From assembly GCF_034347425.1 (NCBI RefSeq), contig NZ_CP133779.1:1054001-1118000 (forward strand): DNA of 64,000 bases. Direction: 5' to 3'. The translations under genes and the position numbers were made by a program. Shown here one piece after another: positions 35,646 through 42,100 of the stretch. Numbering within the stretch: the stretch's first letter is position 1; each line of letters begins with the position of its first letter. Source of the stretch: Undibacterium sp. CCC3.4. Its GTDB lineage: Bacteria > Pseudomonadota > Gammaproteobacteria > Burkholderiales > Burkholderiaceae_D. The notes under the pieces were generated by a model, which ran no database searches, had not been told where the DNA came from, and saw only the letters and a program-made list of their open reading frames with translations.

Positions 35646-36052
35646 ATGAACAGATTTGGCAATATTTCGAAAATGGTGTCTATAAGTGATCCAGCCTGGG
35701 CTGTGGCAAAAGAAACCGGCCTAGCAGGATTGTCCGTCAAGCATGCGGCATCGCCATTTTATATATCCGGGGAAGGAATGGAATTCATCAATATGTGTTG
35801 CTGCTCATATCTCGGACTGGATACCAATCAAAGCATTCTCCGGGGGGCAATCGATGGAGTCGAGAAAGCGGGAACTCTGCATTTAACAACAGCTCGGACC
35901 CGCTTGGTCATTTCCATGCTCTCAGATTTGGAAGACGCCCTATCAGAGCATTATGGAGGTGAAGCCGTTTCATATATCTCCTGTGCAGCGGCAACCTCCG
36001 CATTCCTGCCCATGTATGCCTCTGGTATATTTTCGGGTGGTCGAAAGCCGGT
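35646..36052 (+). pseudogene. Alpha-oxoamine-synthase-like PLP enzyme, 5' part (IS-interrupted)
   Basis: Encodes the first 135 residues of a fold-type I PLP enzyme of the KBL/BioF/HemA/CqsA group: FINMCCCSYLGLDTNQSILRG, GTLHLTTARTRLVISMLSDLEDAL (substrate/acyl binding side) and GGEAVSYISCAAATSAFLPMY. The IS copy B follows at 36053. Removing the IS and one copy of the GGT duplication joins this part in frame to 37302 (…GGRKPV-MAFDKFAHFSM…), giving a 410-residue protein of normal family length. These enzymes condense an acyl thioester with an amino acid and release CO2. Confidence 0.85.
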
Positions 36053-36060
36053 TGTAGTGG

Positions 36061-36942
36061 TCAAGTTATTTCGGACACATCAATAGGTTTTTTTGCTGCC
36101 ATTTCTTTTTCGTAAATCATGGGCGGCAAATTGCCCAGCGTTGAATGCAATCGTAAGCAGTTATAAAAGCCTACGATGTATTCAATGATGTCTTTTGTGG
36201 CTTCCATTTGATTCGCGTAATCGCGTTGCCAGACACGCTCCATCTTTAAATTTAAGAAGAAGCGTTCCATCGCCGCGTTATCCCAGCAGTTTCCTTTACG
36301 GCTCATACTGCAAACAAGGCCATGTTGTTTGAGTAAATGTTGGTATTCATGACTGGCATATTGACTGCCACGGTCGGAATGCAAAATTAAACCCGCTGCC
36401 GGCTTACGTGCCTCAACCGCCATCCGTAGCGCCCGACAAACCAATTCAGCTGGCATCGTTGGCCCCATTGCCCAGCCTATGATTTTTCGTGAGAATAACT
36501 CCATCACGACCGCCAAATACAACCAGCCAGTACGCGTACGGACATAGGTAATATCGGAAGTCCAGGCGCGATTGGGCTCTGCTGGGTTGAACTGTCTATT
36601 GAGAATATTGCTCGCTATTGGTAAATCATGTTTGCTATCTGTCGTGTTGATAAATTTTCTCTTCCAGACGGTTTTGATCTGGGCTTCACGCATTAAGCGC
36701 CGTACTTTGTAGCGGCCAATGACGATGTTCTTGGCGTGCAGTGCACTGACCAGGCGACGGCTGCCATAACTGCGGCCACTGGCAGCGAATTCCGCTTTCA
36801 GATGCACGCTGGTGACACATATTGCGGTCATTTTTGTCTTTGCTTTTGCTGCGTAGTAGCCAGACCGGCTCGCTCCCAAGAGACGACACAGTTGTGCTAC
36901 CGAGGCCTTCGTTTGCCAATGATCGACTAACTCGTAGATCAT
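36061..36942 (-). CDS. IS3-family transposase OrfB (copy B)
   Basis: A 293-residue DDE integrase, nearly identical to copy A (differences include Ser for Thr at residue 14, and Ala for Glu in [10 protein letters not shown]). [17 protein letters not shown] and NAAMERFF carry the catalytic acids. Confidence 0.93.
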
Positions 36943-37232
36943 TTCATTTCGCGTGCAAAGAAGGCCGATGCTTTTTTTAACAGGTCATTGTCCGAACGCA
37001 GTAGACGGTTTTCTTGTTCGAGTTGGCGAATCCGTTGCAGCTCGGCAGACAGTGGTTTCCCTATGCCAGCCTGGCCACCTTGTTCAGCGCGATATTGTTC
37101 AACCCAGCGCCGCACGGCGGTTTCTCCAATACCCATATCTTTCACGATTTTAGCAACCGCTACGCCTTGATCCAGCACCATCCGGGCCACTTCAAGTTTA
37201 AAAGTAGCTTCGTATTTTTTATTCCCAGTCAT
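36939..37232 (-). CDS. IS3-family transposase OrfA (copy B)
   Basis: 97 residues, identical in sequence to OrfA of copy A; HTH plus coiled coil. The stop overlaps the orfB start (ATGA). Confidence 0.93.
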
Positions 37233-37301
37233 CTTTATTTTCCTCGTTTAGGTAATTATTCCTCCTATTGAGGTGTCCGTAAACATTAGACCATTACAGG
37301 T

Positions 37302-38127
37302 TATGGCTTTCGACAAATTCGCCCACTTCTCCATGAGTCACGTAAAGCCCATCTGTGGCGACGAAACTCAGGTGGAGACCTGTCCACACAACGACCTCAA
37401 TTTCATCGAGGATCTCTGCAAGCGGCATGAATTGGTGGCCTACATTGGGGATGGTACCTACAGTGTTGATGGTTTTGCCCCCGTGGAGCAGCTTAAGTAC
37501 CTACAGGACCGCTACGGCCTGTTCCTCTACCTCGACGACTCCCATGGCTTGTCAATTACTGGCGAGCGCGGCGAAGGACATGTGCTTCGAGCGTTGGGTG
37601 AACTCAACGACCGCACTGTCGTCGTCGGGTCATTGGCTAAAGCCTTTGGTGCCTGCGGTGGAATGTTGCTTAGTGGAGATTCTGCACTCAAGGAGCGGCT
37701 GGTGCGTTATGGTAATCCGTGGTCGCAATACATGAATTCTGCGGGCATTGGTGGCACCTTAGCTTCTCTGGCGCTGCATAAGAGCCCAGAGCTTGGCCGG
37801 TTACAAGCCGCGTGGCGCCGTAACTTGTTGACCCTCGACGAGCAGTTTAAGTCCATCAATCGGTTCACAGAATCACCGATCCGAGTGATTCTGCTCGATT
37901 CAGCCGAAACGGCGGTTAACAGTGCTGCCGCGCTATTGGATCGCGGTTTCTACACCTCCGCAGTCTTCTTTCCGATCGTACCTAAGGACATGGCCGGGCT
38001 ACGGATCATGCCGCGCGCGGATTTGAGCCCAGAGCAAATGAATGTATTCTGTAGTGCTCTCACCGAGGTCTGCTCGGCGTCGTTGCGCTCCCCGAAAACC
38101 CCTCACCACCCAAAAGAGACTTCATGA
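37302..38127 (+). pseudogene. Alpha-oxoamine-synthase-like PLP enzyme, 3' part
   Basis: The rest of the gene cut by IS copy B. It holds the PLP-ring Asp-X-His segment (LFLYLDDSHGLSITGERGEG) and the Schiff-base Lys in VGSLAKAFGACGGMLLSGD, followed by the family's C-terminal small domain (AVFFPIVPKDMAGLRIMPRADLSPEQM). The catalytic set is complete, so the ancestral enzyme was probably active. The stop overlaps the start of the MetRS-like gene by four bases (ATGA), showing an operon. A truncated product starting within the IS end is possible but would lack the acyl-binding N-terminus. Confidence 0.85.
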
Positions 38128-40717: not shown

Positions 40718-40725
40718 TGTAGTGG

Positions 40726-41607
40726 TCAAGTTATTTCGGACACATCAATAGGTTTTTTTTCTGCCATTTCTTTTTCGTAAATCATGGGCGGCAAATTGCC
40801 CAGCGTTGAATGCAATCGTAAGCAGTTATAAAAGCCTACGATGTATTCAATGATGTCTTTTGTGGCTTCCATTTGATTCGCGTAATCGCGTTGCCAGACA
40901 CGCTCCATCTTTAAATTTAAGAAGAAGCGCTCCATCGCCGCGTTATCCCAGCAGTTTCCTTTACGGCTCATACTGCAAACAAGGCCATGTTGTTTGAGTA
41001 AATGCTGGTATTCATGACTGGCATATTGACTGCCACGGTCGGAATGCAAAATTAAACCCGCTGCCGGCTTACGTGCCTCAACCGCCATTCGTAGCGCACG
41101 ACAGACCAGTTCCGCTGGCATCGTTGGACCCGTTGCCCAGCCTATGATTTTTCGTGAGAATAACTCCATCACGACCGCCAAATACAACCAGCCAGTACGC
41201 GTACGGACATAGGTAATATCGGAAGTCCAGGCGCGATTGGGCTCTGCTGGGTTGAACTGTCTGTTGAGAATATTGCTCGCTATTGGTAAATCATGTTTGC
41301 TATCTGTCGTGTTGATAAATTTTCTCTTCCAGACAGTTTTGATCTGGGCTTCACGCATTAAGCGCCGTACTTTGTAGCGGCCAATGACGATGTTCTTGGC
41401 GTGCAGTGCACTGACCAGGCGACGGCTGCCATAACTGCGGCCACTGGCAGCGAATTCCGCTTTCAGATGCACGCTGGCGACACATATTGCGGTCATTTTT
41501 GTCTTTGCTTTTGCTGCGTAGTAGCCAGACCGGCTCGCTCCCAAGAGACGACACAGTTGTGCTACCGAGGCCTTCGTTTGCCAATGATCGACTAACTCGT
41601 AGATCAT
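40726..41607 (-). CDS. IS3-family transposase OrfB (copy C)
   Basis: A 293-residue DDE integrase, very close to copies A and B (for example Thr in GWATGPTM where the others have Met, and Ala in ICVASVHL). Catalytic acids intact. Confidence 0.92.
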
Positions 41608-41897
41608 TTCATTTCGCGTGCAAAGAAGGCCGATGCTTTTTTTAACAGGTCATTGTCCGAACGCAGTAGACGGTTTTCTTGTTCGAGTTGGCGAATCCGT
41701 TGCAGCTCGGCAGACAGTGGTTTCCCTATGCCAGCCTGGCCACCTTGTTCAGCGCGATATTGTTCAACCCAGCGCCGCACGGCGGTTTCTCCAATACCCA
41801 TATCTTTCACGATTTTAGCAACCGCTACGCCTTGATCCAACACCATCCGGGCCACTTCAAGTTTAAAAGTAGCTTCGTATTTTTTATTCCCAGTCAT
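41604..41897 (-). CDS. IS3-family transposase OrfA (copy C)
   Basis: 97 residues, identical to the OrfA of copies A and B; ATGA overlap with orfB. Confidence 0.92.
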
Positions 41898-41963
41898 CTT
41901 TATTTTCCTCGTTTAGGTAATTATTCCTCCTATTGAGGTGTCCGTAAACATTAGACCATTACA

Positions 41964-42068
41964 GTTGTTAATGGTGGAGCGCTTACGATCAATTTGGATT
42001 GCAGCGAGTTCTGTCGATGCATTTGGATCACACTAAAGTCAGAACTGATGTTAGGTCAATTTGATTAA
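41964..42068 (+). pseudogene. Displaced 3' stub of the adenylating enzyme gene
   Basis: Directly after IS copy C the plus strand reads VVNGGALTINLDCSEF and on to a TAA at 42066-42068, which is part of a strong terminator. It fits as the C-terminal end of the adenylating enzyme (…LRLDLDSDAAT + VVNGGALTINLD…), but with no matching target duplication the exact joint cannot be rebuilt. Confidence 0.55.
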
Positions 42069-42100
42069 AAAAAGCCCAATAGAAAAATTGGGCTTTTTTG
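42066..42100 (+). terminator. Rho-independent terminator of the interrupted operon
   Basis: AAAAAAGCCCAAT (42068-42080), a short loop, and ATTGGGCTTTTTT (42087-42099): a strong stem with a T run on both strands. It begins at the stop codon of the stub and closes the plus-strand operon; it could also end glmS transcripts from the other side. Confidence 0.85.

Follow-up and report, generated by a model that had tools for sequence, protein, structure and literature searches.

Introduction

According to the accessible part of a published account (PMC11943689), ketomemicins and arphamenines are the only known natural ketomethylene pseudopeptides, and the ketomemicin (ktm) gene clusters encode an aldolase, a pyridoxal phosphate (PLP)-dependent acyltransferase, a dehydratase, an ATP-grasp protein, an amidinotransferase and a dehydrogenase. 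Extra copies of methionyl-tRNA synthetase (MetRS), in turn, are known as horizontally moved drug resistance genes (Gentry 2003 and Brown 2003, as cited elsewhere). Here we analyze a locus that bears on both, located in a 64,000-nucleotide stretch of the genome of Undibacterium sp. CCC3.4 (contig NZ_CP133779.1, positions 1,054,001 to 1,118,000; hereafter the window). Its three genes, all on the plus strand between 35646 and 40717, encode in this order an alpha-oxoamine synthase (AOS) of the PRK07505 type, a 514-amino-acid (aa) MetRS and a PaaK-like ligase, as a first-pass annotation made from the letters alone had proposed. Their ends overlap or touch, again as proposed: the AOS stop and the MetRS start share an ATGA (38124-38127), and the MetRS stop and the ligase start abut at 39668/39669.

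The operon in the window is a relic broken by copies of an insertion sequence (IS), in which the MetRS gene alone is intact. For its intact relatives in other bacteria we favor, at roughly even odds (a probability near 0.5), an explanation in which the MetRS confers self-immunity against a MetRS inhibitor that these relatives make by a ketomethylene pathway. Taken alone, the immunity function seems somewhat better than an even bet.

Results

The extra MetRS is intact and differs in type from the housekeeping enzyme

The genome (G000, one contig of 4,586,698 bases) has a second MetRS gene, matched at C1:4381687-4383225. The housekeeping MetRS, a 692-aa frame (L036 685-2763), is 25% identical to the window MetRS and carries the zinc cysteines and Pro257, as type-2 enzymes do. 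The window MetRS has Leu257 and 0 of the 4 zinc cysteines, and so is of type 1. It is 89% identical to a Rhizobacter protein (P0157) and 58% and 54% identical to two Deinococcus-group enzymes. The choice of Leu257 or Pro257 as the typing residue follows a paper available in part (PMC8165550).

In E. coli numbering, the window MetRS retains Y15, H21, H24, D52, W253, A256, Y260, I297, H301, W305, KMSK, N391, R395 and W461. Differences from the E. coli enzyme fall at 12, 13 and 257, shared with type-1 enzymes, at 300, where the residue is Pro as in both Deinococcus-group proteins, and at 306, where it is Leu. The features expected of a functional MetRS are in place, namely HIGH, KMSKS, the methionine pocket (Y15, D52, W253, A256, Y260, I297 and H301) and the anticodon-binding N391, R395 and W461; we take these positions to have the catalytic, methionine-pocket and anticodon-binding roles that such names imply. 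Among the 120 database matches listed, all 75 short MetRSs (the window's included) retain W253, A256, Y260, I297, H301, KMSK, N391, R395 and W461.

All six genomes inspected that have an extra MetRS also hold a type-2 MetRS, and in each of the five other than our own one MetRS scores above the type-2 family cut-off, besides the extra one. A second MetRS beside biosynthetic genes, with the housekeeping copy elsewhere, is the pattern of self-immunity, and it would make MetRS the target.

We discarded the idea that the window MetRS is a cupin-MetRS hydrazine synthetase, as it has no fused cupin and its MetRS residues are not altered. A third MetRS-like gene in Erwinia mallotivora provides the comparison: it has lost Y15, A256, Y260, I297, N391 and R395, although the alignment is weak there (18-20% identity). 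This gene, a frame that looks like a cupin joined to a MetRS, lies beside N-monooxygenase-like and FAD oxidoreductase-like genes (named by eye) in a locus that is cut by the contig end (L054:6483-10758), and which, from its sequence, is a probable hydrazine-type natural-product locus.

The cluster recurs, and is rare

A search with the ligase returned 35 matches, itself included, at E<=0.001 among ~5.8 billion proteins, the last five being 30-33% identical. A single scan of a collection of 84,980 species gave four ligase loci. The locus of Sodalis endolongispinus (L018) has a piece of a short-chain dehydrogenase/reductase (SDR), a fragmented MetRS that contains a stop, RipC-like, RipB-like and OCD-like proteins (OCD, ornithine cyclodeaminase), the ligase, and the AOS in two frames. 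That of E. mallotivora (L019) has a major facilitator superfamily (MFS) protein, an SDR, a RipC-like aldolase, a RipB-like dehydratase, an OCD-like protein, the ligase, ATP-grasp-like and JmjC/cupin-8 proteins, the AOS, a 2-oxoglutarate-Fe (2OG-Fe) oxygenase, the MetRS and a ketosynthase. That of Pseudomonas brassicae (L020) has the MetRS, an SDR, a quinone-oxidoreductase-like protein, the ligase (in two frames), an HpcH-type aldolase, a FAS1-dehydratase-like protein, a RipC-like aldolase, the AOS, a methyltransferase and others. The fourth, a Paraburkholderia contig (L021), is short and starts inside the ligase, with no AOS or MetRS shown. The first three share the ligase, AOS, RipC-like aldolase and MetRS, and the RipB-like protein occurs in L018 and L019.

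Judged by eye from equal longest-contig sizes rather than from reading the contigs, with the 120 matches listed serving as the AOS and MetRS sets, ligase and MetRS are co-located for at least 5 of the 34 other ligase matches (contigs 17194, 449442, 48533, 86841 and 90508), ligase and AOS for at least 6 of the 34 (17194, 17354, 15355, 16138, 8305 and 12978), and AOS and MetRS on at least three contigs (17194; 125207, Rhizobacter; 18528, Burkholderia glumae).

Within taxa the genes are scarce. Of 399 genomes sampled from the window's order, three (G000, G588 and G776) have a MetRS of the window type (E<=1e-120). The Erwinia MetRS (E<=1e-60) turned up in just one of 394 genomes from its order, its own, and the ligase profile (E<=1e-40) in 1 of 369 genomes of the class, the window's. 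In Pseudomonas the profile matched 67 of 348 genomes, P. brassicae alone scoring in the family range (377 bits vs 149-230). The ligase protein itself matched 7 of 60 relatives at E<=0.001, its own genome included, and the six others were at most 33% identical or matched over short stretches. Viral contigs yielded no relatives. A genome of the same order has a different grouping (L035:4885-12298), with MFS and LuxE-like proteins, a LuxC-PaaK fusion, a PaaK-like ligase ~32% identical to the window's and a GNAT-like frame.

The first-pass annotation had named two results that would tell against it, that the three genes never occur together elsewhere and that the MetRS is the only one in the genome. 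The trio is found in other genomes and a housekeeping MetRS is present, and with neither result obtained a biosynthetic cluster family is well supported. The family is real, rare and apparently uncharacterised: our literature search found no report of a MetRS gene within an AOS/PaaK cluster. Two other identities were rejected, anti-phage defence, for which PADLOC gave no match, and the PNP-1 cluster of Pantoea, in which the available part of the description includes no MetRS.

MetRS lineages differ while ligase and AOS stay

In the MetRS tree nine sequences, eight from contigs with a ligase or AOS (window and Erwinia counted) and one from Xenorhabdus, group together (support 97/94) inside a 15-row clade with Deinococcus as sister. 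The P. brassicae MetRS stands apart, being 34% identical to the window's though its ligase and AOS sit within the family; holding it in one clade with the others was rejected (approximately unbiased test, p-AU 0.000126 and 0.000198), for a group that was named after seeing the tree. Similarly, the Sodalis ligase pairs with that of contig 48533 (100/99), and the extra Sodalis MetRS, assigned from identity and residues of its pieces rather than a tree, is zinc-type with Pro257. At least two clusters thus appear, on sequence grounds, to hold a MetRS of another lineage while the ligase and AOS are kept. A strict rule by which the extra MetRS always switches type was dropped, since it fails for Sodalis.

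Why would a biosynthetic operon carry a complete MetRS? One answer is that it is a pathway enzyme, which activates methionine or makes Met-tRNA to serve as donor when an amide, ester or ketone of the product is formed. MetRS-like domains act so in hydrazine synthetases, and cupin-MetRS fusions such as that of L054 stand in natural-product loci. Papers on diazo and azaserine clusters also mention, in the excerpts available, a methionyl-tRNA synthetase. The tight coupling of AOS, MetRS and ligase and the largely agreeing MetRS and ligase trees point the same way. The synthetase of those papers, however, is presumably hydrazine-type, and the window MetRS keeps the tRNA and anticodon residues, unlike the weakly aligned L054 fusion. 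Moreover, P. brassicae and Sodalis have MetRSs of other lineages, G588 and G776 hold MetRS relatives without an AOS, and no tRNA-dependent transferase was recognised by eye in the scanned part of the listed open reading frames (ORFs) of L018-L020. Because the MetRS appears replaceable and its tRNA-binding sites are complete, immunity fits better than a pathway step, and a biosynthetic role is less likely. So is the aminoacyl product that the first-pass annotation had envisaged open to doubt, as the MetRS resembles a translation enzyme kept for immunity more than it does a pathway enzyme.

Alternatively, the MetRS could have been acquired as a resistance gene of general use, or have landed in the cluster as a passenger, with the drug it counters being made by others. 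The precedent of mobile, resistance-conferring MetRS genes cited above favors this, as do the orphan relatives: around the close MetRS kin in G588 and G776 no AOS or ligase lies within the 7-10 kb read per side. Extra-looking MetRS genes (32-34% identical to the window's) also occur on rhizobial and Streptomyces plasmids (L092, L096-L099), where the stretch read has neither an AOS nor a ligase of the trio type. Nonetheless, several genera have the MetRS in their ligase/AOS clusters, and it is coupled inside the operon, which makes a chance arrival improbable.

Relatives pair the AOS with an aldolase and a dehydratase

The PRK07505 AOS adjoins a RipC-like aldolase and a RipB-like MaoC protein in L018 (with the AOS in two frames), L019, L032, L037 and L038. 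In L020 the AOS is beside the RipC-like aldolase, and the FAS1-dehydratase match is weak. An ATP-grasp-like protein is present in L019, and no amidinotransferase was found in the part of the neighbor proteins that was scanned. The closest solved AOSs (8xha, 8xhd, 8i7u and 8xhk; E ~1e-77, the next at 6e-23) include none named KtmB there. No annotated aldolase or dehydratase lies beside the AOS in plasmid loci L023-L025. The Pantoea and Rahnella plasmids (L023:8572-17512 and L024:5549-14488) have a TauD-like oxygenase, an MFS protein, three ATP-grasp proteins, the AOS and a flavin monooxygenase, and upstream on the Rahnella plasmid are a cupin-like frame (by eye) and then a MetRS-like 'tRNA ligase' fragment.

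A second AOS cluster lies ~22 kb on in the same genome, just past the window end (L032 992-6439, equivalent to window positions 63992-69439). Its frames are all open and encode an OCD-like protein, a desaturase-family hydroxylase, an SDR, RipB-like and RipC-like proteins, and an AOS2 that is 48% identical to the C part of the window AOS. The aldolase is the genome's best RipC match (196 bits, the next 65; both under the cut-off of 375). A D-2-hydroxyacid dehydrogenase at window positions 62998-63954 may be a neighbor of this cluster.

The best family names for these proteins, RipC and RipB, belong to itaconate metabolism. The aldolase/dehydratase/AOS core might, on that basis, make a product of another class than the ketomethylene pseudopeptides, for example an itaconyl-type aminoketone. 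The two names score below cut-off. Since the same three enzyme classes occur in ktm, we regard such a product as possible, if on balance unlikely.

The operon in the window is a relic

The first-pass annotation had treated the AOS as one gene in a working operon. Its reading frame is in fact split by a 1246-bp IS3-type element with GGT flanking both ends, a 3-bp target duplication. The best AOS database match (P0037, Rhizobacter sp. P5_C2) aligns from its first residue, at 35646, as far as the IS, and resumes with residues 135-398 at 37300-38091. The PRK07505 profile and the PLP lysine (K248, invariant in an alignment of 30 chosen rows) are present, with neither half alone reaching the cut-off. 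A second copy, with 14 differences from the first, truncates the ligase at 40717, leaving ~349 codons where the closest relative (P0002) has 415 residues; the ~66 residues lost include the conserved C-terminal RRKGR stretch. The lack of a target duplication at this copy suggests a deletion or recombination beside it. A third copy lies at 12030-13275, so that three near-identical copies occur inside 30 kb of the window. As AOS and ligase cannot yield whole proteins, the trio is a relic (Table 1).

The 'strong terminator' said to close the operon is a hairpin beyond the second IS copy and near glmS, with 13 pairs of which just 4 are G-C, and the terminator scan of the window found 9 such sites against 12.7 expected in shuffles. 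The drug exporter at about 30 kb, counted by the annotation as a cluster member, is Bcr/CflA-like and has no significant match to the exporter of the Erwinia cluster, and in the interval from there to the AOS tblastn with the ORFs of 12 loci matched nothing but transposases. The exporter's membership and the upstream 'gene stubs' are therefore unsupported. Gene order and coupling are what one would expect of a working operon whose amino-ketone or aminoacyl product this protein exports; however, the broken frames of AOS and ligase contradict it, no remnants link the exporter, and the genome's best RipC-type aldolase match lies beyond the window end. Such an operon is very nearly untenable.

Table 1. 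Features of the trio and its surroundings in the window
Feature	Position	Strand	Basis
Bcr/CflA-like MFS exporter, C-terminus entering an IS	30005 (or 30020)..31243	+	profile/family matches
AOS 5' part, PRK07505 subfamily, ~136 codons, cut by IS	35646..36052	+	NF005697 2.6e-36; P0037 match from residue 1
IS3-type element, copy 1	36053..37298	-	transposase frames 36061-36942 and 36939-37232; GGT target duplication
AOS 3' part, PLP-lysine motif SLAKAFG	37299..38127	+	NF005697 1.6e-95; 88% to P0037 residues 135-398
Extra type-1 MetRS, 514 aa, intact frame	38124..39668	+	NF008900 1.7e-167 (below cut-off); TIGR00398 above cut-off; PDB 3vu8 2.6e-155
PaaK-like adenylate-forming ligase, truncated	39669..40717	+	protein search, alignment, PaaK structures
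IS3-type element, copy 2	40718..41963	-	same IS, no target duplication
Hairpin beyond IS copy 2, beside convergent glmS	42068..42099	.	terminator scan

Discussion

We propose that the trio is what survives of a natural-product cluster gained by horizontal transfer. In relatives that are intact, the RipC-like aldolase would extend a 2-oxo acid by two carbons, and the dehydratase (RipB-like where seen) together with a dehydrogenase would convert the adduct to a 2-substituted succinyl-type thioester. The AOS would then condense this thioester onto an amino acid with loss of CO2, giving an alpha-aminoketone, that is, a ketomethylene pseudodipeptide. The PaaK-like ligase may activate an acid, either for loading the AOS or for coupling its product. 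The MetRS would stand outside the pathway and take over the charging of tRNA-Met when the cell's type-2 MetRS is inhibited by the product. That product is probably a ketone that resembles methionine and acts as a mimic of methionyl-adenylate; the presence of the MetRS is the reason for suggesting methionine as a substrate.

A number of observations weigh against self-immunity combined with a ketomethylene pathway. For none of these clusters do we know a product, a target or a resistance. Neither an aldolase nor a dehydratase lies beside the AOS of the window trio, judging by a comparison of the ORFs of 12 loci with the window, or beside the ligase on the short L021 contig; L020 has no RipB-like match, the weak FAS1-dehydratase one standing in its stead; and all RipC and RipB scores are under the cut-offs of their models. 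Most MetRSs from ligase-bearing contigs fall into a single clade, and the order of the nine grouped ones largely resembles that of the ligase tree, an agreement that a pathway enzyme would show likewise and that fits either role. Of the two divergent lineages, the P. brassicae MetRS has a long branch and a Y at 461 in a locus whose ligase is frameshifted, and the extra Sodalis MetRS is of type 2, like the Sodalis housekeeping enzyme. A candidate resistance signature, eleven positions that separated 15 short MetRSs from 5 type-1 housekeeping enzymes, proved unspecific and was dropped because D18, L306 and H325 are shared by 22, 9 and 17, respectively, of the 45 long sequences among the 120 matches listed; H30 (71/75 short, 0/45 long) and the loss of Leu309 (69/75 short, 0/45 long) serve as clade markers only. 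Finally, ketomemicins are inactive on E. coli and P. aeruginosa, according to the accessible part of the account (PMC11943689).

A more specific form of the proposal, which we consider doubtful as a whole, is that the intact relatives make an antibiotic class new to science, a ketomethylene pseudopeptide built from methionine, which would block the Gram-negative type-2 MetRS as a mimic of methionyl-adenylate. The Deinococcus-type MetRS would then be a portable immunity gene that also spreads alone as resistance. In either form, a MetRS inside a biosynthetic operon points to a testable target for a natural product still to be found. The MetRS inhibitors under discussion, in the portions of that literature available, are synthetic and aimed at type 1, and a natural inhibitor of the Gram-negative type of MetRS would, if true, be a new lead. 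The cluster would also extend a ketomethylene-like pathway to proteobacteria with a different product.

By enzyme class, the relatives resemble the ketomemicin (KtmA-F) and arphamenine systems in combining an aldolase, a PLP acyltransferase and a dehydratase, along with a dehydrogenase-like SDR in L018-L020 and L032 and an ATP-grasp-like protein in Erwinia. In contrast to the ketomemicin clusters, these are proteobacterial, add a PaaK-like ligase and a MetRS, and show no amidinotransferase among the proteins scanned; the window trio also differs in having no aldolase or dehydratase. The ligase shares the fold family of PaaK/phenylacetate-CoA ligase and LuxE-like enzymes by profile (PDB 9s3l, 1.5e-11), whereas its 35 matches at E<=0.001 mark a separate small family.

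The window MetRS shares with cupin-MetRS hydrazine synthetases a MetRS fold in a natural-product locus, and differs in having no cupin and in keeping the methionine and anticodon residues missing in L054. Its identity to the two Deinococcus-group enzymes and its Leu257 place it with type-1 MetRSs of the Thermus/Deinococcus lineage, yet the cluster MetRSs are short (mostly ~505-545 aa) and reside in Gram-negative hosts already equipped with a type-2 enzyme. The acquired drug resistance enzyme MetRS2 of S. pneumoniae, as excerpts of its literature describe it, is likewise a second MetRS of the other type beside the housekeeping one. Here the arrangement is reversed, with a type-1 enzyme in type-2 hosts, it is set inside a biosynthetic cluster, and the resistance it would confer is putative.

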